In this document: positions 9,741 to 26,686 of the stretch, one piece after another
Numbering within the stretch: position 1 is the first letter of the stretch
Layout: each line of letters starts with the position of its first letter
Source of the DNA: Mariprofundus sp.
GTDB lineage: Bacteria > Pseudomonadota > Zetaproteobacteria > Mariprofundales > Mariprofundaceae
NCBI GenBank assembly: GCA_021772775.1
Contig: JAJFLH010000018.1
Location: forward strand, 1 to 64,000
Direction: 5' to 3'
DNA: 64,000 bases
The notes under the pieces: model-generated
Databases searched by the model: none
What the model was told of the DNA's origin: nothing
Seen by the model: the letters and a program-made list of their open reading frames with translations, nothing else
Translations under genes and position numbers: made by a program

Positions 9741-12656
9741 TTATTCAGAGCTTAACAGCTCCTGAATGACATGGCTGAGATAGTTCAGGTCAAACGGTTT
9801 ATTCAAAATAATACTTTGGTCAATGCCGGAGCCAATATCCAGCGCTTGATCCTTATCGTAGCCCGTCACAAAAATAGCCGGCACATCGCTGCCCTGTGAT
9901 CGTAACTGCTTAATTAAATCTACTCCACCCATGCGGGGCATCACCAAATCAGTAATAACCAGCTGGATCTCCTGTTGATGCAGAGTAAACACCTCGAGTC
10001 CTTCCACACCATCGCTGGCCTCTAACACACGGTATCCCAGATTGCTTAATAGCTCCAGAGTTGTGGCGCGCAGCATAGGCTCATCATCCACCAGCAACAG
10101 GGTTTCATTATTGCCTGCCTTAAGTTCAGTTTTCTTAGGTTGGTATTCCGCCTCTTGCTCGCTGACCAGTGGCAGGTAGATACTGAATCCAGTGCCTTCT
10201 CCCAACCGACTGTCGAGCTCAATGATGCCACCATGCGTTTGGATCGCTCCGAATACCATGGCCAGACCGAGCCCCGTACCTTTACCCACTCCCTTGGATG
10301 TAAAGAAAGGCTCAAACACTTTTGTTATATTCTCTTCGGCTATGCCGCTGCCATTATCTTGGACTGTTATGCGCGCCATTTTTTCGGTATCGATTTCAGA
10401 GTGTTTCATGATAAATGTTTCATCTGCCTGATATGGGGCCAGGGAAATCGATATATTTGGATGCTCCACTCTGGCAAGCGCATCACGCGCATTATTCAGC
10501 AGATTCATCAGCACCTGCTGCAGCTGGGTGGCATCACCGCGAATATAGAGTTTATCGTGACATATCACGCTGTGTAAATTGATGTTTTCAGGAATTGCAG
10601 TCTCAGCCAGCTTAAGGGCTTCCTTGAGAAAAGGGTTCAGTAAAAAAGTTTTCATCGCCACTGAATCTTTACGGGAAAAAGTAAGTAGCTGTTTCACCAT
10701 CTCGGCGGCTGAGTTGGTCAGTTGCTCGATATTGCCAATCTTTTCATCGGCCCCAGCACTATCATCCTTCTGCAGCCGCATGCGAGCCAGATAGCTGTTA
10801 CCCTGAATAGCCGCCAACATATTGTTAAAATCGTGTGCAATGCCACCAACCAGTGTACCGATAGCTTCCATCTTTTGAGCCTGCAGGAATTGATCTTCCA
10901 TCTTTTTATAGTCGGTCATATCCTGTTGTAGCGATACATAATGGCTGATTTCACCCTTCTCATCATGAATCGGTGATACCGTCATCAGAGCAGGGTAAAA
11001 GCTGCCATCTTTCTTCCTGTCGATCAGCGTACCATGCCATACATCACCACGCGTAATGGTGCGCCACATCTGCTGATAGAACTTCGGATCCTGCGCATCA
11101 CTCTTCAATATCGATGGGTTCTTTCCAATCACATCTTGCTCTGTATAACCGGTGATTTTGCAAAATGCCGGATTCACATATTCGATAATCGCACTGGCAT
11201 TGGTGATCAACACTGCCTCGCCGGCTTCAACAATCGCTTTGAGCAGTTTGCGTTGCGTATCTTCGGCCTTTATCTGATCGCTCAGATCGCGCATCATCAC
11301 CGTCATGATCGTTTCACCTTCAATGATCTGTTTGGAAATTGATGTTTCGATGGGGAACTCTTCACCATTGATACGCCGCCCAAACATCCCACTACGCCTG
11401 TGCAGCAGTGGTGCATCACTTGTACCGACAAACGCTTTAACCGCTTGCCGGTGCCCCTCCTGAAAGCGTTCAGGTATCAGTTTTTCGACTTGTTGCCCCA
11501 GCACTTCCTGTTGCCGATAGCCAAACATACGTTCGGCAGCTCTGTTAAAAAGAACAATCTGTTGCATTTCATTGATTGAGATGATCGCATCAGCGGCCAT
11601 CTCCACAATACCGGAAAATCGCGCCCGGCTCTCAACCATTTCATTCTCAGCCAGCTTACGTTCGGTGATATCAACAGCCATGCTTACAGTATATTTTATG
11701 CCATCACTTTTACCCAAATTGGTGGAATAGAAATCCCATGTCCGTGTTTCTCCATTGGCAATCTGAATGGTATATTCACCATCATGACTGGAGTGATCCA
11801 AATTATGCAAGCTATTGATAACCTTTCTGGCTTCAGCTCCCAATTCACCATAAGCCCTATCTGTCCAGGCTGCGATGGTGGGAATATCTTCATGTAAATA
11901 ACCAGTTAACTCTTCCCACTTGCTGCTAATCAGCTGCACATTACCATCTTCTGCATGCACCATAATCGGAATTGGCGCATTCAAAATCATCTGTTTTAAG
12001 CGTTGTTCACTGGTTTTTAGTGCCTCCTTCATACGACTGCGCTCTGTCGTGTTTTCAAAAACGATCCCCACACACTGCTCTGGAAGCTGAAAGGCCCTGA
12101 CCGAAAAAGTAGACTTTTCAATACGTTCATCACCGTACACGAGTTCATCGATAATGAACGCCTCCCCTGTACGAATGACTTCTGCATAGACCTGAGGTAA
12201 TCCAAGTTGACGCAAATCAGGGAAGGCCTGATCGATAGTCAACCCCACAAGCCTGTTTATATCACTACCGGTAAACTCTGATGCTGCCGGGTTTGCATTG
12301 ATTAGCCTCAATGTCCGGTCATCATCCAGATCCTCCAGCTGGTAAACAAGCAGTCCCACTTTCATGTTATTTACGATGTAATTTTTATTCTGTTCACTCT
12401 GCTGCAGCGCCTTACTTGTCTGCTCCAGCTCTTTCCAGCGACGATATGAAAACCAGAATGCAACGATTGAAACTGCCAAAAAAGTCATGAGTAGTTCATC
12501 CAGTTGCCAATGTTCATTTTTATGAAGGTAGGCATGAATCAGCTCGAATAAGTCTATGTAAACAGCTATACCCCATACCGCGACAAGCACTCCGATAGCA
12601 ATGATCAGATCGCTACGAAAATTACTGTGCTGATGTTTTTTTAGTGAGTCAGTCAT
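9741..12656 (-). CDS. Hybrid sensor histidine kinase with four PAS domains and receiver
   Basis: 971 residues. Two membrane helices (about 17-40 and 53-71) are separated by a very short loop, so there is no real periplasmic sensor domain. Four PAS-type domains follow: about 90-205, 215-335, 345-465 (a tandem S-box with AADAIISINEMQQIVLFN) and 470-590. The H-box [12 protein letters not shown] places the phospho-His at 608. The ATPase domain has LLNNARDA, DNGSG and GKGTGLGLAM. The receiver has Asp pair 857-858, phospho-Asp 903 (ITDLVMP) and Lys 953. It lacks Hpt and DNA-binding domains, so the output partner lies elsewhere. Input is probably intracellular, such as redox, small molecules or cofactors bound by PAS. 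It lies upstream of gmhB-plsC on the same strand; whether co-transcribed is unknown. Confidence 0.93.
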   Translation of the reverse strand: MTDSLKKHQHSNFRSDLIIAIGVLVAVWGIAVYIDLFELIHAYLHKNEHWQLDELLMTFLAVSIVAFWFSYRRWKELEQTSKALQQSEQNKNYIVNNMKVGLLVYQLEDLDDDRTLRLINANPAASEFTGSDINRLVGLTIDQAFPDLRQLGLPQVYAEVIRTGEAFIIDELVYGDERIEKSTFSVRAFQLPEQCVGIVFENTTERSRMKEALKTSEQRLKQMILNAPIPIMVHAEDGNVQLISSKWEELTGYLHEDIPTIAAWTDRAYGELGAEARKVINSLHNLDHSSHDGEYTIQIANGETRTWDFYSTNLGKSDGIKYTVSMAVDITERKLAENEMVESRARFSGIVEMAADAIISINEMQQIVLFNRAAERMFGYRQQEVLGQQVEKLIPERFQEGHRQAVKAFVGTSDAPLLHRRSGMFGRRINGEEFPIETSISKQIIEGETIMTVMMRDLSDQIKAEDTQRKLLKAIVEAGEAVLITNASAIIEYVNPAFCKITGYTEQDVIGKNPSILKSDAQDPKFYQQMWRTITRGDVWHGTLIDRKKDGSFYPALMTVSPIHDEKGEISHYVSLQQDMTDYKKMEDQFLQAQKMEAIGTLVGGIAHDFNNMLAAIQGNSYLARMRLQKDDSAGADEKIGNIEQLTNSAAEMVKQLLTFSRKDSVAMKTFLLNPFLKEALKLAETAIPENINLHSVICHDKLYIRGDATQLQQVLMNLLNNARDALARVEHPNISISLAPYQADETFIMKHSEIDTEKMARITVQDNGSGIAEENITKVFEPFFTSKGVGKGTGLGLAMVFGAIQTHGGIIELDSRLGEGTGFSIYLPLVSEQEAEYQPKKTELKAGNNETLLLVDDEPMLRATTLELLSNLGYRVLEASDGVEGLEVFTLHQQEIQLVITDLVMPRMGGVDLIKQLRSQGSDVPAIFVTGYDKDQALDIGSGIDQSIILNKPFDLNYLSHVIQELLSSE

Positions 12657-16599: not shown

Positions 16600-17886
16600 G
16601 TGAAAAAAAAGAGTGAGAGCGACCTTGGCAGACGAGATTTCCTGAAAACATGCGGTAGCATGGTCGTCGGTGCTGCTGCCACCTTTGCTTTTCCAGCCAT
16701 TATCAGTGCGCGCGACAGCAAACCAACGATTCGGGTTGTCGGCACCCATGTGACACTTCAGGAAGCCCTACGTCAAAAAGCTGAAAAAGACCTTGGCATT
16801 AATATTGAATTCTATCCAGGAGGCAGTGCGGAAGTACTGCTAAAAGCCTCGACTGATCCGTCGTCATTTGATCTGTATGAACAGTGGTCCAACAGTATGA
16901 ATGTATTATGGCAGGCCAATGCCATTCAACCGATCTCAATCAACAAACTGACATACTGGGATGAGATCAATGGTTTGACCAAAACCGGACGAATATCTCC
17001 AGGTGCCAAAATTGGCTTGGGTGATGCCCCACATAAACTGCTCTACGCACAAGCTGATGGCTCGCTTGGCGCGAACCCGACCGGTGAAATAAGCTTTTTA
17101 CCCTATGTGCATAATACCGATTCATTTGGTTATAACTCGGCAGTGATTCCCAAAGGAATCCCCTATGAGACGGAGAGCTGGGGCTGGCTTCTTGATGAAC
17201 GTTATGCCGGTAAAGTGGCACTGGTGAATGAACCAACGATTGGTCTTTTTGATGCAGCACTGGCGGTAAAAGCACGTGGACTGATGGACTTTAAAGATAT
17301 GGGAAGCATGACACGCTCAGAGCTGGATGAGCTGTTTAAAATCCTTGTTGATTATAAAAAACGTGGTCATTTCAGAGGCGTCTGGTCATCAGTTCCTCAT
17401 TCAGTTGAACTGATGCGCTCAGGCCAGGTGGATATTCAGAGCATGTTTTCTCCCGGTGTCTCTGCCCTCAACGGCATGGGTATTCCATGTATCTATGCAG
17501 CACCTAAAGAGGGCTATCGTGCCTGGCACGGTGTGATGTGCCTCTCTCGTGAGTCCAGTGGTGAGCGACAAGAAGCCGCTTATGCCTTTATGAACTGGTG
17601 GTTATCCGGTTGGCCAGGCGCATTTATTGCCAGGCAGGGCTATTATATTTCCAATCCAGAACGCTCACGCCGCTTTATGTCCGCCTCCGAATGGGACTAT
17701 TGGTATGATGGTAAACCAGCCAGCCAGGCTCTGCGTGGTACCGATGGCAAAATCTCTGTGCATCCGAATGAAGTACGTACCGGAGGCTCTTATATCAAGC
17801 GCTTCGAAAATGTAGCTGTATGGAATACGGTCATGGACTCTTATGAATATTCGCTCCTGAAATGGAACGAATTCGTGATGGCCTGA
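16600..17886 (+). CDS. Tat-exported extracellular solute-binding protein, PotD-like
   Basis: 428 residues. The N-terminus carries a twin-arginine signal (GRRDFLKT at residues 10-17, then a hydrophobic stretch ending PAIISA), so the protein should be exported folded to the periplasm. The mature part has the form of a type II periplasmic binding protein of the spermidine/putrescine (SBP_bac_8-like) group: IRVVGTHVTLQE, DLYEQWSN, LPYVHNTDSFGYN, ALVNEPTIGLFDAAL, YAAPKEGYRAWHG. The GTG at 16600 follows GGAGGA; a longer reading from 16543 would bury the Tat motif. There are no ABC permease or ATPase genes nearby. The next gene, 7 bp on, is a hybrid kinase with a large periplasmic domain, suggesting this protein is a ligand co-receptor, not a transporter part. 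The ligand is unknown. Confidence 0.85.
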   Translation: MKKKSESDLGRRDFLKTCGSMVVGAAATFAFPAIISARDSKPTIRVVGTHVTLQEALRQKAEKDLGINIEFYPGGSAEVLLKASTDPSSFDLYEQWSNSMNVLWQANAIQPISINKLTYWDEINGLTKTGRISPGAKIGLGDAPHKLLYAQADGSLGANPTGEISFLPYVHNTDSFGYNSAVIPKGIPYETESWGWLLDERYAGKVALVNEPTIGLFDAALAVKARGLMDFKDMGSMTRSELDELFKILVDYKKRGHFRGVWSSVPHSVELMRSGQVDIQSMFSPGVSALNGMGIPCIYAAPKEGYRAWHGVMCLSRESSGERQEAAYAFMNWWLSGWPGAFIARQGYYISNPERSRRFMSASEWDYWYDGKPASQALRGTDGKISVHPNEVRTGGSYIKRFENVAVWNTVMDSYEYSLLKWNEFVMA

Positions 17887-17893
17887 GTAGATC

Positions 17894-20800
17894 ATGTTTG
17901 GCACCCTGAAACTGAAACAGAAAGTATTTGCCGGTTTTTTATCGGTGGGTTTAGTGACCACGGCTATCGCAGCCATTTCGTACGTTTCATTCGACAATGT
18001 GTTAAAAAACTTCAAAGGTTTTGTAGAATATTCCAACCGAGCTGAGTTGAATCTGCTATTGGCACACAATGTTTCCGAAATTCAACGCCAGGCCCTTATT
18101 TATACTTATGAAGGCCATCAAAGCGCTGCCGAACAGGTACATGCGCTATATGGCGATATGAAACAGACCCTCGAGAAAGGTGAAAGCCTTAAATCAGACC
18201 ATGCGGATTTAATTCAAAAACACATTCATAGCTATATGCAGGCATTTGAACAGCTACAGCAACAGCGAGAACTACAACATCATTTAATCCATTTTGATTT
18301 AAAGGATGCAGCTGCTAATGCAGAACACTTTTTGCAACTTCACATACAACAGCAATCTCTGCACCACGATAATACAGAGCTTTTAATGCATGAACGCATC
18401 TTAAACAGTCTGTTATCCATAGAGAAATATGCCCTACGCTACTTCAACACACTGGATCCATCATATATTCAAAAAACTAAAGCTGGCTTCATCACAGTTC
18501 GAAAACAGATACAGGCGATGAAAACAGATAAACAGCGATTATCCGCTGGCACTGAATCGACAAATGCGCTAAAAAATATTGAAACATATGAGCGTACGTT
18601 TCTGGAAGCAGTACAGCGAACACGAGGATATCTATTTCTGGTCAATGTTGTGATGTCGGCTGAGGCTTATGAAATTCTGTACAATGCCCGCAAGATGTCC
18701 GATCAGGTCACACAGGAGATGACTACGATTGAGCAGGATACTTTAAGCACATTACAACAGCTGTTTAACTACATTATTATTGCACTTTTGTTATCGCTAT
18801 TGATGGTTCTACTGCTCTCTGTATTGATTGGCCGCAGCCTCACTAAGCCTATTATGGGTTTAACCAAGGCCTTTAATGCTCTTTCGCAGGGATCACATAA
18901 AACGGAGATTCCACCATATCAGGCTAACGACGAAATTGGCGACCTGACCCGAGCTGCAGTTGTATTCAAAGAGAAAAACCTTCAAACACACACTTTGTTA
19001 GAACAGGCAAAAGCATTGACTCAAGAGCTGAAGAAGTCGCAAGAGAAGTATGTCGACCTGTATGACAATGCTCCGGATATGTATGCATCGGTGGAGGCTG
19101 CAACAGCGCTGGTATTGCAATGCAACCAGACGGTGGCAAATAAGCTTGGTTATCGCAAAGATGAAATGATCGGACAACCTATTTTTGCACTCTACCACGC
19201 TGACTGCATGGACAAGGTGCAGGCTGCATTCAAATCATTTATTGAAACCGGTGTTGTACACAATGCAGAGCTACAATTGAGGAAAAAGGATGGCAGCAAA
19301 ATAGAGGTCAACTTGAACGTGACATCTGTACGGGATGAAAATGGCCAGATTTTACATAGCCGCTCCAGCTGGATTGACATCACTGACCGAAAACAGGCAG
19401 AAGAGAAAGTGCGCAAGTTGTCACAAGCCGTTGATCAATCAGGCGAAGCCGTCGCCATTACCGATGCTGCGGGATGTATCGAATACATTAATCCCGCTTT
19501 TTCGCTCATCACCGGTTATAGCGAAGCTGAAGCTATAGGGCAAAACCCCCGTATCCTCAAAAGCGGCAATCAGGATGCCGCATTTTATGAAAAGATGTGG
19601 TCTACTTTAAGGTCAGGTGAATTCTGGCAAAGTAAAGTGATCAACAAAAGGAAAAATGGCGATTTCTATCCTTCCATGCTGACCATTTCACCGATTAAAA
19701 ATGATAGTGGTAAAATCACCAACTACATTGGTATCCAGCAAAGCCTAGAGGCCATTGAAGCGCTGGAGGCCCAATTCCACCAATCACAAAAAATGGAAGC
19801 GATTGGTACACTCGTTGGCGGTATTGCACATGATTTCAATAACAATCTAGCTGGTATTACCGGCAATCTGTATCTGGCAAAAATGGCTGCCAAATCATTG
19901 CCTGAAGTCGTTAAACGCCTGGATAGCGTGGAAACACTCTCATTTGGAGCCGCCGCAACCATTCAGCAACTGTTGGCCTTTTCTCGCAAAGGTATTGTGC
20001 AGATGAATCCACTTTCTATCTCATCATTTTTAAAAGAGACGATCAAACTTCAACAGGTCTCTCTGCCAGAAAGTGTATCGCTTCAACTTCAGGTCAATGA
20101 TACGGATATGCTTGTGAAAGGTGACATCAATCAGCTACAACAAGTGTTGATGAATCTAATCAATAACGCTTTTGATGCCGTACAAAAGAGTGAAAACCCG
20201 GCTATTCGTATTTGCCTGGATCGCTTCCAGGCTGATGATGACTTTGTGACCCAACATAACGGTTATAGACTGGGGGAGTATGCCCGTATCTCAGTCGTTG
20301 ATAACGGCTCGGGTATAAAGCCCGAACATCTCAATCATGTGTTTGAGCCCTTTTTCACCACCAAAGAACAGGGCAAAGGAACCGGTCTTGGGCTAGCGAT
20401 GGTGTATGGAGCAGTCAAAACGCATGATGGCATGGTTGATATCATATCATCACTGCAAGGAACCACGGTACAACTCTGCTTGCCACTGATTATGTCAGGT
20501 GAGGCTATTGATATAGCGGTGCAGGAGGATCAAGTCGTCGATGGTGATGGTGAAATGATTCTACTCGTCGATGATAATAAAACAGTGCTGAAAACAGCCA
20601 AGGATGTACTGGAAGGCATAAATTACGTTGTACTAACAGCAGAAGATGGTTTGGCTGCAATTGAAACATATCAATCTCATATCAATGACATCGACCTGGT
20701 CATTCTCGATGTAGTAATGCCACGCCTCGGTGGTGTCGAAGCGCTAAAGATGATCAAAGATATCAATCCAGACGTTAAAGCCATGTTTGCTACCGGTTAC

Positions 20801-20914
20801 GACAAACTCAGAACACTTGGCGTAAATCAGCAAGAGATGACCGAGAAAGTCATCAGTAAACCATTTGCTGTAAGTAAACTCAGTCAGCTCATTCGAGAGG
20901 TCTTACGAGGCTAA
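17894..20914 (+). CDS. Hybrid histidine kinase with long helical periplasmic domain (TorS-like layout)
   Basis: 1006 residues. TM1 is about 10-30. A predicted all-helical periplasmic domain of about 260 residues follows. TM2 is about 288-315, then HAMP (SLTKPIMGLTKAFNAL), a coiled coil and two PAS domains (about 390-500 and 510-630). The H-box [13 protein letters not shown] has its His at 646. The ATPase domain has INNAFDAV, DNGSG and GKGTGLGLAM. The receiver has Asp 893-894, phospho-Asp 939 (ILDVVMP) and Lys 989. The helical sensor and adjacent binding protein recall TorS/TorT, though the binding protein here is a different fold class. There is no Hpt domain. Starts 7 bp after the binding-protein stop, so surely co-transcribed. 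Its catalytic core is a close paralogue of the kinase at 24107. Confidence 0.93.
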   Translation: MFGTLKLKQKVFAGFLSVGLVTTAIAAISYVSFDNVLKNFKGFVEYSNRAELNLLLAHNVSEIQRQALIYTYEGHQSAAEQVHALYGDMKQTLEKGESLKSDHADLIQKHIHSYMQAFEQLQQQRELQHHLIHFDLKDAAANAEHFLQLHIQQQSLHHDNTELLMHERILNSLLSIEKYALRYFNTLDPSYIQKTKAGFITVRKQIQAMKTDKQRLSAGTESTNALKNIETYERTFLEAVQRTRGYLFLVNVVMSAEAYEILYNARKMSDQVTQEMTTIEQDTLSTLQQLFNYIIIALLLSLLMVLLLSVLIGRSLTKPIMGLTKAFNALSQGSHKTEIPPYQANDEIGDLTRAAVVFKEKNLQTHTLLEQAKALTQELKKSQEKYVDLYDNAPDMYASVEAATALVLQCNQTVANKLGYRKDEMIGQPIFALYHADCMDKVQAAFKSFIETGVVHNAELQLRKKDGSKIEVNLNVTSVRDENGQILHSRSSWIDITDRKQAEEKVRKLSQAVDQSGEAVAITDAAGCIEYINPAFSLITGYSEAEAIGQNPRILKSGNQDAAFYEKMWSTLRSGEFWQSKVINKRKNGDFYPSMLTISPIKNDSGKITNYIGIQQSLEAIEALEAQFHQSQKMEAIGTLVGGIAHDFNNNLAGITGNLYLAKMAAKSLPEVVKRLDSVETLSFGAAATIQQLLAFSRKGIVQMNPLSISSFLKETIKLQQVSLPESVSLQLQVNDTDMLVKGDINQLQQVLMNLINNAFDAVQKSENPAIRICLDRFQADDDFVTQHNGYRLGEYARISVVDNGSGIKPEHLNHVFEPFFTTKEQGKGTGLGLAMVYGAVKTHDGMVDIISSLQGTTVQLCLPLIMSGEAIDIAVQEDQVVDGDGEMILLVDDNKTVLKTAKDVLEGINYVVLTAEDGLAAIETYQSHINDIDLVILDVVMPRLGGVEALKMIKDINPDVKAMFATGYDKLRTLGVNQQEMTEKVISKPFAVSKLSQLIREVLRG

Positions 20915-21059: not shown

Positions 21060-22388
21060 ATGAATAAAGTAATTCTCGCACTCATCTCACTACTCTTCAT
21101 TGCGAGCATGTCGGCATCCGCAGCGGAATTTAAAATGGTTAAACCTGAACAAGTAGGCCTCTCGTCTGAACGCTTAAAGAACATGGATCAATTGATTGAT
21201 AATCACATTCATCAGAAGAAGATCGCTGGTGCTGTGGTGCTGGTCGCACGCAAAGGTAAAATCGCTTATTTCCGAGCATCTGGTCTGGCCGATGTCGGTA
21301 AAGCAATGCACCGAGATACAATGTTCAGAATCGTTTCTATGACCAAGCCAGTCACCAGCACAGCAATCATGATGTTATATGAAGAGGGTAAATTACTACT
21401 CTCCGACCCGGTATCCAAATACATTCCTGAATTTCGCAATCAGAAGGTACTAGTACCCATGCCTAAAGGCTCTGAGTTTCCATACAGGCTGGTGCCGGTA
21501 AAACGTGAAGTACAGATTCGTGATCTATTGGCGCATACCTCAGGCATCCTCTATCTATTCCTCAACGATGTGTACCCGAATCCCACTCGCCGCATGGTCG
21601 TTGATCTCTATAAAGAGGCTGGCATTACCGATGGTTTCTGTCGCCCTGATGAAGAGATTGGTGACATGGTCAAACGCCTAGCCCGTTTGCCACTTTATGC
21701 TCATCCGGGCGAAGTCTGGGACTATGGCCTGAACTCCGATGTGCTGGGCTATCTGGTGGAAGTGGTTTCAGGCCAGAAGTTCGATACATTTGTTGAGCAG
21801 CGCATCTTTAAACCTTTAAAAATGCATGACAGCCATTTCTATATCCCTGAAGAGAAATTACCGCGCCTTGCAGCCGTATGGAAGAGCGACTGGAAGGGGC
21901 ATTTAGAACGCGCCGATGACAAACCGATTATCTCTGGAGATCTATGTCTTAATCCGAGCGATGCTGAAGCGCTTTCCGGCAAGTATCTTGCTGGTGGAGC
22001 TAATGTGTTATCCACCGTTTACGATTATTTCCGCTTTGCCCAGATGTTCCTCAACGGCGGGGAGCTTGATGGGGTTCGTTTGCTCAGTCGCAAGACTGTC
22101 GAACTAATGTCTGCAACCAATCATATCGGTAAACACGATGCCGAATTCCTGCACAGCAAAGGTTGGAAGTTCGGTCTCGGTTTTGCCATCCAGCAGGATA
22201 GGGAGCATTCGGTGGATAGTGGTGATGCAGGCACTTTTGAGTGGGCGGGTATCTATTCAACCCGATTCAGTATCGATCCAAAAGAAGAGAAGATCACCAT
22301 CTTTATGAGTCAGACCAACCCCTTCGGTCATCATTTTGAGCTCTGGGACAAGGTGCTGGTGCAATCAGCATCGGCAATAGCGGATTAG
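21060..22388 (+). CDS. Secreted serine hydrolase, class C beta-lactamase fold
   Basis: 442 residues. A Sec signal peptide (about 1-22, cleavage after ASAAE-type site) directs it to the periplasm. The serine hydrolase nucleophile is in SMTK (residues about 97-100: RIVSMTKPVTSTAIMML). The second catalytic motif is the Tyr in WDYGLNSDVLGYLVE. HTSG (LLAHTSGILY) and a late WAGIYSTRF stretch are typical of the EstB/penicillin-binding-protein-like esterases. Members include esterases, D-aminopeptidases and AmpC; substrate cannot be inferred. The ATG follows AAAGGAG. An SBP_bac_3-like gene starts 11 bp downstream, so the hydrolase belongs to that transcript and may produce or remove the ligand that the binding proteins detect. 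Confidence 0.88.
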   Translation: MNKVILALISLLFIASMSASAAEFKMVKPEQVGLSSERLKNMDQLIDNHIHQKKIAGAVVLVARKGKIAYFRASGLADVGKAMHRDTMFRIVSMTKPVTSTAIMMLYEEGKLLLSDPVSKYIPEFRNQKVLVPMPKGSEFPYRLVPVKREVQIRDLLAHTSGILYLFLNDVYPNPTRRMVVDLYKEAGITDGFCRPDEEIGDMVKRLARLPLYAHPGEVWDYGLNSDVLGYLVEVVSGQKFDTFVEQRIFKPLKMHDSHFYIPEEKLPRLAAVWKSDWKGHLERADDKPIISGDLCLNPSDAEALSGKYLAGGANVLSTVYDYFRFAQMFLNGGELDGVRLLSRKTVELMSATNHIGKHDAEFLHSKGWKFGLGFAIQQDREHSVDSGDAGTFEWAGIYSTRFSIDPKEEKITIFMSQTNPFGHHFELWDKVLVQSASAIAD

Positions 22389-22399
22389 GAAGGTATATC

Positions 22400-23245
22400 A
22401 TGAATCAACTTACCAGCAACCACACAGGCAACAGCCTGTTGGTATTTTTCATCATGTTTTTTGTGTTACCAAGCCCTGCATTTGCAACAGGCCCGCGCGT
22501 GACCACAGCACTGTTTTCAGCCGATAAAAGTGAGATACATGCTGTTGATTTTCCTCCCTTTGTATCCTCCGATGTAGTGGATGGCGGAGCCATATCTGAG
22601 CTCGTCAACACTGCTCTGGCTCGGGGAGGGGTGGATGCAGTCATTTCCACCCATCCGATTCAGCGCATGGTGAGATATTATCTGTTACAGGAGGATGCCA
22701 TGGCTGTCATAGGCTGGCATTTTCAGCTTACTGCAGAACAGAAAAAGCATCTGATCCTTATTCCGATCACGCGACTTCCCGAGAAATATTTCTATTATAA
22801 ACCGCGACATCCGAATGGCTTGATGATCAATGATGTAAGCTTGAAAGGCCTGCGTTATGGGGCGCATAAAGGTGAAGATACGAGCACCTTCGAAAAGGCC
22901 GGTGTCGAAGTACAATATGGCAGATCCATAGCACTGCTGAAAAAACTAAAAAATAACGAACTGGATTTTATCTGCTCCCCCCCCAAGACAGTGGAATGGC
23001 TGCTTGATCGCTACATGAGTGATGAAAAAGAAAATTTTGTTAGCACTGCTGGAGATGCTGAAAAGCAGCTCTTTTATATTGTATTCAACCGCAAACATGC
23101 AGATGGAGAGATGGCAGCGGATAAATTTAACAAAGCACTGAAGGATATGGTCAACGATGGCACATATGGTAAGATTGTTGAGAAACATCTGGGTAAGGGC
23201 GACGATGGAAAGCTCTATTTGAGGCGATTGGAAACATTTAAGTAA
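22400..23245 (+). CDS. SBP_bac_3-like periplasmic binding protein (orphan)
   Basis: 281 residues. A signal peptide covers about 1-29 (hydrophobic LLVFFIMFFVLPSPAFA). The mature part follows the amino-acid-type binding-protein plan: VDFPPFVS, then GGAISELVNTALARGGVDAVI, a central LKGLRYGAHKGEDTSTFEKAGVEVQYG segment, and a C-terminal FNKALKDMVNDGTYGKIVEKHLG typical of family 3. No permease or ATPase gene is nearby. The ATG follows GGAAGG. It is followed 28 bp later by a second, only distantly similar binding protein and then by a hybrid kinase. It could instead be a transport protein for a distant permease. Confidence 0.8.
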   Translation: MNQLTSNHTGNSLLVFFIMFFVLPSPAFATGPRVTTALFSADKSEIHAVDFPPFVSSDVVDGGAISELVNTALARGGVDAVISTHPIQRMVRYYLLQEDAMAVIGWHFQLTAEQKKHLILIPITRLPEKYFYYKPRHPNGLMINDVSLKGLRYGAHKGEDTSTFEKAGVEVQYGRSIALLKKLKNNELDFICSPPKTVEWLLDRYMSDEKENFVSTAGDAEKQLFYIVFNRKHADGEMAADKFNKALKDMVNDGTYGKIVEKHLGKGDDGKLYLRRLETFK

Positions 23246-23273
23246 CAGGGAAAATTAAAGGAGAGTGATATCG

Positions 23274-24104
23274 GTGAGATATCTTAAAGCATTGGAGAGT
23301 ATTGGGAGAGTTACTGCCTTACTGTTGCTGCTTAGCGTAGCTGTATCAAACAGTTATGCAGAAATCACTGTCCAGCTACATGCCAATGAGAGCCTACCCT
23401 TCTTTTCCAAAACCATGCAGCTAAACGGCATGGCCGGTGAGATTATTCATGCTGCTTCAAAAGCTGCTGGAATTACGTCAATCATAGAGTTTAGACCTCT
23501 AAAGCGCATGATCGATGATGATAGTAATAATGATTTGGGAAACCCTGCGTTCTATATGGGCACGCAGGAGTTCTCCGCCATCATTCCTATTGCCGTTTAT
23601 CATATGGCTGTTTTCCATTATCTGCCCAATCATCCTAGACACCCCGAAATTCACGCAGTGAAAGATTTAGAAGGGCACAAAATAGGGGTCCTGAAAGGCA
23701 CACTTGTCGATCGCTCTCAATTCGAAAAAGCAGGCATCGTCTTTGAAGAGAGTTATTCTCAAGAATCGCTGTTTAAAAAACTGCAGAAAGGCCGTATTGA
23801 TCTGGTGATTGAGATTAATCTAGTTGGCAAAACTATGATTACGCGCCTTTTTCCTTCCGATAGAGAGAGTTTTGGCTCAGTTCTTATCCCCAAATCAGAA
23901 TCTCCGATCGCTATTCTTCTGGCAGAGAAGCAGCTCAACGGCAACGCGTTAGGAGTACGCTACAGACAAGGTTTGCAAAAAATAAGATTGAGCGGTGAGT
24001 ATGAAACTATCCTCAATAAATATTATGGATCTGACGGGCTACCAGAGCACTATATACGAGCTATGGAGCGCTTTACTATAATCTATAATGACGGTACTGA
24101 ATAA
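23274..24104 (+). CDS. Second SBP_bac_3-like periplasmic binding protein (orphan)
   Basis: 276 residues from the chosen GTG. The signal peptide has a hydrophobic core TALLLLLSVAVSNSYA. Mature motifs include GMAGEIIHAASKAAGI, DLEGHKIGVLKGTLVDRSQFEKAGI, LFKKLQKGRIDLVIEIN and a C-terminal LQKIRLSGEYETILNKYYG, as in family 3 solute-binding proteins. A GTG at 23265 gives three more codons but lies one base from the AAAGGAG; the GTG at 23274, ten bases away, is better placed. Two bases separate its stop from the ATG of the kinase at 24107, so translation is tightly linked. It is the likeliest direct co-receptor for that kinase. Confidence 0.8.
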   Translation: MRYLKALESIGRVTALLLLLSVAVSNSYAEITVQLHANESLPFFSKTMQLNGMAGEIIHAASKAAGITSIIEFRPLKRMIDDDSNNDLGNPAFYMGTQEFSAIIPIAVYHMAVFHYLPNHPRHPEIHAVKDLEGHKIGVLKGTLVDRSQFEKAGIVFEESYSQESLFKKLQKGRIDLVIEINLVGKTMITRLFPSDRESFGSVLIPKSESPIAILLAEKQLNGNALGVRYRQGLQKIRLSGEYETILNKYYGSDGLPEHYIRAMERFTIIYNDGTE

Positions 24105-24106
24105 TC

Positions 24107-26686
24107 ATGAGCAGGTTAAAAAACAGCATTAAAGGCATGATCATTATGATCGTAGTGTTGACCGTAAGTTGCGGTTTTATGGTCTTTGAATTCTATGATT
24201 ACCATTCGACTGAGACCACCGCTCTAAAAAACCTCGAGGAGTTGACACACAGAAAAGCTGACCGGCTAGCTGAAAACCTGTCTATACCTGTATGGGAGAT
24301 TGATAACGACTGGGTCATTAAGATTATCGATACCGAAATGAAAGATAAGCAGGTTTATGCGATCACTGTTATTACAGATGGTAATCTGTTTGAAGGTAGA
24401 CAGCGGAATACAAATTGGCAGCCTGTGCAAGCCTCGCAAAAGATCAGCGAAGATTATATTTTCCGCTCCCGCTTCATTGAGCGTGACGGTCAAACAATAG
24501 GCTCTGTAAACGTCTATATCAGTCGTCAATTTATGGATGAAGTGCTTACTGAACGACTGATAAGGCAGATGATTGCACTATTGCTATTGGCACTGCTGAT
24601 TGTCATCACCCTGGTGGCTCTTCTGAACAAGGTGGTTGTGCGACGCCTACAGAAAATTCTCTCTGTCTCTAAGGCTATCGCAAACGGTGACTACTCACAG
24701 AGCCTAGATGTCAGTTATCATGATGAAGTTGGCCTTCTTGCCGATGGTATGAATACCATGAAACACAATATTCAACTGCGTGAAGCAGAATTAAAAGAGA
24801 GCGAGTCGCGATTCCGACGGCTTGTACAACAAATTCCGATTCCCCTAGCCTATGTAGCAAAAACAGGAGAGTTCGAATTTTTCAATGACCGTTTTGTAAA
24901 AACTTTCGGCTACAACCAGAAAGATCTGCCGACCATTGAGCAGTGGTGGGAGCTTGCTTACCCGGATGAGGAGTACAGACGCTGGGTTTTAGATAGTTGG
25001 GATTCCGCAACGACAAAAGCCATGACGATGAAAGAAGACATCCAGCCAGCTGAATACAATGTGACTTGCAAGAATGGCGATGTGCGCATCATTGAAATCG
25101 CCGGTGTTTTCCTTGGTGATGATTTACTTGCGACTTGCATTGACCTTACTGAACGAAAGCAGGCTGAAGAAAAAGTAAGACGTTATTCTCAGGCTATGGA
25201 GCAGTCTGGAGAGGGCATTGTCATTACAGATAAACAAGGGGTAATCGAACACATCAACCCGGCGTTTACACTGCTCACGGGCTATGGTGAAGAAGCCATT
25301 GGTAAGAAGACCAGCCTACTGAAAAGTGGCAGTCAAGATAACGCATTCTATGAAAGAATGTGGGAAACCCTGATATATGGACAGACATGGCAGGGAAAAG
25401 TTATCAATAAGAAAAAAAGCGGTGAGCTCTATCCCGCTATGCTGACTATTTCCCCCATCAGAAATGACGAAGGTAAAACCACCAACTATATTGGTATTCA
25501 GCAAAATCTGGAAAAATTTGAAGAGCTGGAACAACAGTTTCATCAATCTCAAAAAATGGAAGCAATCGGCACGCTGGTTGGCGGCATAGCCCACGATTTT
25601 AATAACACACTCGCGGGTATTACCGGCAATCTCTATATGGCCAAAAAGGCAGCCAATAGCCTACCCGATGTTGTGTACCGGCTTGATAGTGTAGAGAAAC
25701 TTTCGTTCAGTGCTGCGGCAATGATCCAGCAACTGCTGGCCTTCTCCCGCAAAAGTGTTGTGGAGATGAATCCACTTTCGATCTCCTCCTTTTTGAAAGA
25801 GACCATCAAATTAAACCAGGTTTCGCTGCCGGAGAACATTGATTTTCAAATGCAGGTAAGTACTAGTGACATGCAAGTGAAGGGCGATATTAATCAGCTG
25901 CAACAGCTATTCATGAACCTGATCAATAATGCTTATGACGCTGTGCAATCACAAAAGAAACCATGCATACGGATTGAGCTTGAGTGCATTCATGCCGACA
26001 ATCATTTTGTTGATCAACATGAAGGCTCTAAAAAAGGTGATTATGCTTGTATTTCGGTGATTGATAATGGCTTCGGTATTAAAGCGGAGCATCTCAACCA
26101 TATTTTTGAACCCTTTTTCACAACCAAAGATCCGGGCAAAGGAACCGGGCTTGGTATGGCGATGGTTTACGGTTCGGTAAAAACCCATCATGGCCTGATT
26201 GACGTAAAATCTACACAGGGCGAACACAGCGGGACATCGGTACGGATATATCTGCCTCTGATCGATTCAAATCAACTATCTGATATGGGAGATACGCATG
26301 ATGATGTGATCAATGGCCATGGTGAAACCATCCTACTTGTAGATGATAACAGTACCGTCCTGGAGACCGGGCGTGATGTACTTGAGGGCTTAGGCTATAA
26401 AGTACTGATGGCTGAAGATGGTCTGTTAGCTATTGAAACTTACCAATCACATCAGGATGAAATAGACCTGATTATTATCGATGTGGTGATGCCTAAACTG
26501 GGAGGCGTTGAAGCACTAAAAGTAATTAAGAGCTTCAACCCTGCTGTAAAAGCCATGTATGCTACAGGTTACGATAGACTTAGTTCGCTACAAATTCGCA
26601 GTCATGCACCTTTAGAAAGGGTCATCAGTAAACCGTTTGCAGTGAGTCAGCTCAGCCAGCTCATTCGAGAGGTATTAGAAGGGTAG
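24107..26686 (+). CDS. Hybrid histidine kinase paired with orphan binding proteins
   Basis: 859 residues. TM1 is about 10-29 and TM2 about 152-175, enclosing a periplasmic domain of about 120 residues, much smaller than in the kinase at 17894. HAMP follows, then two PAS domains (about 235-350 and 355-475). The H-box [13 protein letters not shown] has its His at 496. The ATPase domain has [13 protein letters not shown] and [10 protein letters not shown]. The receiver has phospho-Asp near 794 (IIDVVMP) and ISKPF Lys near 841. In the 50 residues after the His, 41 are identical to the kinase at 17894, so the cores arose by duplication while the sensor parts differ. No Hpt. Last gene of the hydrolase/binding-protein transcript. 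Confidence 0.92.

Follow-up and report, generated by a model that had tools for sequence, protein, structure and literature searches.

A PotD-type binding protein with a Tat signal and its adjoining hybrid kinase as a probable two-protein receptor in Mariprofundus, with related gene pairs in several phyla

Described binding-protein-driven sensors

Receptors driven by a periplasmic binding protein (SBP) are known so far from few examples. PgtC-PgtB is a two-protein sensor made up of an SBP and a histidine kinase, PgtC and AioX belong to SBP families other than the one considered here, and TorT is a type I binding protein. The AioX-AioS system is presented in PMC5908839 as an SBP and histidine kinase sensor of the same two-protein makeup. 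By plan, the closest known system is NspS-MbaA of Vibrio cholerae and Sinorhizobium meliloti, in which a PotD-type SBP acts in signaling through a membrane sensor (PMC9993111), the same plan being used there for a c-di-GMP output (PMC9993111, PMC8079147). The periplasmic part of S. meliloti MbaA spans residues 24-256 and is followed by HAMP, and the MbaA output is GGDEF-EAL (PMC9993111). TorT-TorS is a looser analogue (reviewed in PMC8534201). In P. aeruginosa, SBP_bac_8 and kinase genes lie near each other (PA0602/AgtB with AgtS, PA4985 with AruS) and no interaction was seen (PMC11113362).

No description of the SBP-sensor pair reported below was found in the literature searched, outside which most subscription journals lay, so that its absence is not proof that the pair is new. 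The preliminary description of this DNA had called the pair a possibly undescribed receptor, and this can be kept for the pair itself and not for the principle, as NspS-MbaA already provides a membrane sensor driven by a PotD-type SBP (PMC9993111). The pair is widespread, occurring in several phyla, and the general kind, an SBP-driven receptor, is already known.

The gene pair in the window

The window, the whole 64,000-nucleotide stretch of Mariprofundus sp. DNA that was analyzed, contains the two genes in tandem, with the following features.

16600-17886, + strand: SBP gene, starting at a GTG preceded by GGAGG; product of 428 aa with a type II PotD/PotF fold; ligand-binding co-receptor (proposed)
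16630-16647, + strand: twin-arginine motif RRDFLK of the Tat signal, residues 11-16
17894-20914, + strand: hybrid histidine kinase gene, 1006 aa; ATG start 7 bp past the SBP stop
17927-17986, + strand: TM helix 1, approximately residues 12-31, from sequence and sensor model
17987-18763, + strand: periplasmic all-helical HBM-type sensor domain, approximately residues 32-290; proposed SBP-docking domain
18614-18673, + strand: signature block, residues 241-260, QRTRGYLFLVNVVMSAEAYE, from the alignment of partnered sensors
18764-18832, + strand: TM helix 2, approximately residues 291-313, from sequence and sensor model
18824-18955, + strand: HAMP domain, PF00672, at its cut-off
19067-19393, + strand: PAS domain 1, Pfam
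19415-19741, + strand: PAS domain 2, Pfam
19805-19990, + strand: HisKA dimerization/phosphoacceptor region (GGIAHDFNN), below the Pfam cut-off and assigned from sequence
20120-20488, + strand: HATPase_c catalytic domain, Pfam
20558-20893, + strand: C-terminal receiver domain, Pfam

The SBP N-terminus, MKKKSESDLGRRDFLK, has a twin-arginine motif that scores 19.1 bits with TIGR01409 (cut-off, 16.7), the Pfam match is SBP_bac_8 (8e-16), and the AlphaFold2 model (pLDDT 89.7) is of the PotD/PotF type, with PotD/PotF as its fold neighbors in Foldseek. Genes, TIGR01409, SBP_bac_8 and fold therefore agree with the initial assignment of a PotD-like protein with a Tat signal encoded just before a hybrid kinase. 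The likeness to the PotD/PotF SBPs of ABC transporters consists of the same fold and weak sequence similarity, whereas the window SBP lies outside any transporter operon, is ∼60 to 80 residues longer as encoded and has the pocket acids replaced.

No permease or ATPase gene adjoins the SBP gene at this locus. The host genome (99.96% complete) encodes one SBP_bac_8 protein and seven PF00528 permeases, namely, two dipeptide-type pairs, PstCA and ModB, assigned by sequence together with neighbors (PstS/PstB/PhoU-like genes for PstCA and a ModA-like gene for ModB). No PotBC-type or other cognate permease for the SBP was found in this genome, in keeping with the earlier remark that ABC partners are missing.

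The kinase has the order TM, periplasmic domain (∼31-290), TM, HAMP, PAS, PAS, HisKA, HATPase and REC; the domain scan gave no Hpt domain in it, and among the neighboring genes there is no separate response regulator alongside. As with NspS-MbaA, whose genes adjoin or overlap, a PotD-type periplasmic SBP gene directly precedes a sensor gene, and some relatives of the window pair have GGDEF. Unlike NspS-MbaA, the window pair has a Tat signal and most members have a hybrid kinase output, and compared with MbaA as it is described, the window kinase lacks GGDEF-EAL and the polyamine-pocket acids of the SBP are replaced in the alignment. TorT-TorS shares with the window pair a periplasmic binding protein and a hybrid kinase with an all-helical sensor, with some fold similarity. 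It differs in gene order, in that the window SBP is an SBP_bac_8 protein of the PotD/PotF type and not a TorT-like type I protein, and in that the core of the window kinase is PAS-PAS-HisKA-HATPase-REC without Hpt. TIGR02956 scored 108.6 bits on this kinase against a cut-off of 676.5, and we reject membership in TorS on the grounds of architecture, SBP type and profile comparison. The PgtB model was matched by the kinase core alone, far below its cut-off.

Conservation of the pair across genomes

Within the order, the SBP is present in 5 of 78 genomes; clear sensor matches are found in the same 5, adjacent every time, and the sole further match in the order is marginal (6e-4, genome G014). Genome G008, from another genus, keeps SBP and sensor but joins them to another kinase core, and genes for a receiver protein and a PAS hybrid kinase come next. 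In the Mariprofundus relative G053 (L010:5851-8863), the sensor kinase gene is in pieces through frame changes and the SBP is intact.

A scan of species genomes yielded >500 SBP relatives, and loci were analyzed for the best 80 of these (62 to 87% identical), which by record title come from Pseudomonadota, Desulfobulbaceae, Campylobacterota, Verrucomicrobiota, Planctomycetota, SAR324 and Oligoflexia. The twin-arginine motif is present in 71 of these 80, the rest being mostly KR-type. L064 and L092 were left out of the pairing count because these loci end before the next gene is readable, leaving 78 testable loci. A membrane sensor gene lies immediately downstream of the SBP in 77 of them, with a homologous sensor domain detectable in nearly all of the 77; the sole exception, L040, has an SBP without an adjoining sensor. 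From 397 Pseudomonadota genomes drawn independently, 22 more SBP loci were obtained at 59 to 66% identity. In each of the 22 the sensor gene adjoins the SBP gene, and the top sensor matches of this sample were these loci and the loci of the order. The pairing far exceeds chance. A genome survey for the pair had been put forward as a check on the preliminary description, and both samples come out in its favor; the near-perfect co-occurrence, together with the failure to find a cognate permease, supports the reading of the two proteins as one receptor. As a conserved SBP-sensor gene pair without transporter genes, it agrees with the general kind, an SBP-dependent two-protein receptor.

Scanning the outputs of 57 sensors gave HATPase in 48, GGDEF in 9, a receiver in 25 and Hpt in 6, and EAL was not among the families listed for these relatives. 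Output modules thus vary, as kinase or GGDEF, while SBP and sensor remain together. The genes neighboring the pair loci have no common metabolic theme, and response regulators and other signaling genes prevail among them. We note that one genome, that of Pseudoalteromonas gelatinilytica, contains two separate SBP-sensor pairs (L058 and L061), indicating that the receptor can duplicate as a unit.

Fold and conservation of the sensor domain

The Pfam scan of the kinase gave no match over the sensor region. The AlphaFold2 model of the ∼260-residue periplasmic domain (mean pLDDT 92) is all-helical, as had been anticipated from sequence, and contains the two-module six-helix HBM fold. Its best Foldseek match is the HBM domain of McpS, with TM scores by target length of 0.76 to 0.78, against 0.40 to 0.59 for TorS entries and 0.47 to 0.55 for the TorS-TorT complex entries, and profile comparison of the sensor with Escherichia coli TorS was not significant (probability, 3%). 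With the McpS HBM fold closer, no significant TorS profile match and no Hpt domain, TorS is not the nearest relative; the preliminary description had called the kinase TorS-like. A search by sequence for solved structures related to the sensor returned helical and HAMP-region matches only, the best being an "ancestral PcpI" structure, and many of the weaker sequence matches of the sensor fall in chemoreceptor-like frames. McpS and related chemoreceptors share the six-helix sensor fold; they differ in that the McpS HBM domain binds dicarboxylates directly and in that the HBM chemoreceptor relatives inspected have no such SBP neighbor.

Among the pair loci, mean identity is ∼64% between SBPs and ∼21% between sensors, and the aligned cytoplasmic parts average ∼28%. 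Conservation within the sensor is concentrated in the signature block at residues 241-260, where V252 and E260 occur in all rows, V253 in 95% and N251 in 86%, with a smaller conserved patch at residues 62-74. This block is largely missing from HBM relatives without an SBP, which are mostly chemoreceptor-like. Distances between SBPs correlate more closely with those between sensors (Spearman 0.56, reached by 0 of 200 Mantel permutations) than with those between cytoplasmic parts (0.41), although shared inheritance of adjoining genes can yield part of the SBP-sensor correlation. We propose, from the modeled fold, which bears some relation to that of the TorT-binding TorS sensor, that the helical sensor may be the domain on which the SBP docks.

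Family and ligand of the binding protein

The SBP tree has three well-supported neighboring branches. All sensor-paired SBPs fall in one clade (support 99/99). SBPs of the ABC-transporter branch have RR signals and lie beside permeases, an ATPase and often an Asp/Glu racemase gene (Tat signals and an Asp/Glu/hydantoin racemase gene in L025, L026, L143-L149, L159 and L160), and SBPs of the sister branch have no signal peptide and lie in CobW/amidase/deacetylase/SDR clusters. PotD/PotF themselves sit on a very long branch. A sensor domain was found in none of the sister-branch loci scanned, either those of the ABC-transporter SBPs or those of the signal-less SBPs by CobW/amidase genes. Because sensor-paired SBPs form one branch and the scanned sister-branch loci are without a sensor domain, recruitment to the receptor role seems to have happened once. 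The Tat signal is a family trait, since SBPs of the ABC-transporter branch also carry RR signals, and Tat export, called unusual in the preliminary description, is thus not peculiar to this co-receptor. The signal-less PotD-like proteins (L022:6965-8179, L007:5971-7203, L156 and L158) lie in conserved gene clusters that also encode a CobW GTPase, two SDRs, an amidase, a polysaccharide deacetylase and a protein of ∼104 residues that has no Pfam match; such a cytosolic SBP-fold protein is possibly an enzyme.

In the profile alignment, PotF residues D39, E185, D247 and D278, which we take to be the acidic residues of the polyamine pocket (partly also from the titles of PotF variants), correspond to V51, A222 (or I214), G286 and G311 of the SBP; placement near E185 is ambiguous by a few residues, and neither option is acidic. 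R307 is invariant. Because none of these four positions holds an acid, the alignment makes a polyamine ligand unlikely. The settings of the sister branches (amidase, deacetylase, SDR and CobW; Asp/Glu racemase) hint at an amide or imide, a hint too indirect to claim. The high conservation of the SBP in different phyla points to an environmental signal that they share.

Proposed mechanism and alternatives

We consider it likely that the two genes form one SBP-dependent receptor in which the SBP no longer serves a transporter. The SBP would fold in the cytoplasm before export by Tat and would bind, in the periplasm, a small molecule that is probably not a polyamine. One state of the SBP, most likely the ligand-bound closed one, may then dock on the HBM-type domain of the kinase, and docking would presumably change autophosphorylation via TM helix 2 and HAMP. 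Phosphate would pass to the C-terminal receiver and from there perhaps to an Hpt protein or regulator elsewhere, and in other genomes the same SBP-sensor input module would drive other kinases or diguanylate cyclases. Docking does not follow from adjacency, because AgtS and AruS show that neighboring SBP and kinase genes need not interact, and McpS shows that an HBM domain can itself bind a small ligand, so that sensing might not fall to the SBP alone.

That direct binding is the core of one alternative, in which the HBM domain recognizes the small molecule and the part of the SBP is limited to delivery, trapping or chemical modification of that molecule. The McpS structures, which matched the sensor best, contain succinate and malate as ligands, the far stronger conservation of the SBP than of the sensor also fits an enzyme-like role, and the sister branch without a signal peptide lies in catabolic clusters. 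At 21% identity, the sensor nevertheless varies a great deal for a domain with a common small-molecule pocket, and the block that it conserves is specific to sensors with an SBP partner, so that we regard this explanation as unlikely. A polyamine receptor like NspS-MbaA, with a kinase in use by chance, is rather improbable: the replaced PotF acids, the invariant R307 and the very long PotD/PotF branch argue against it, even though the plan is the same, with a PotD-type SBP gene before a membrane sensor whose periplasmic domain has ∼230 to 260 residues, and some relatives have GGDEF outputs like MbaA. An SBP that serves an unlinked ABC transporter, with kinase adjacency reflecting co-regulation only, would agree with the transport role of the ABC-branch relatives and with the functionally unlinked SBP and kinase genes of P. 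aeruginosa (PMC11113362), yet the host genome yielded no PotBC-type permease and the pairing across phyla is almost exceptionless, which makes this explanation highly improbable.

Returning to the SBP-dependent receptor, we suggest tentatively, with somewhat less than even confidence, that the SBP was recruited once from a transporter family to serve solely as co-receptor for one non-polyamine molecule of conserved chemistry and spread across phyla as a plug-in input to phosphorelays or c-di-GMP signaling. As a receptor, the pair would represent a large unnamed family in which the ligand-binding half is conserved, the helical half changes fast except for a fixed signature block, and the outputs are interchangeable. 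The pair offers a ready test of how an SBP communicates with a helical sensor.

Other signaling genes in the window

Two further hybrid kinases are encoded in the window. At 22400-26686, two tandem secreted SBP_bac_3-like proteins directly precede the second, and over 519 residues the PAS-kinase-receiver parts of this kinase and of the one at 17894-20914 are 69% identical; with the same output module and a different input, this locus is perhaps another SBP-fed receptor. Between the two kinase groups, the gene at 21060-22388 encodes a secreted beta-lactamase-family (PF00144) serine hydrolase. The third hybrid kinase, at 9741-12656, has the order PAS-HisKA-HATPase-REC and a cytoplasmic part ∼40% identical to those of the other two.
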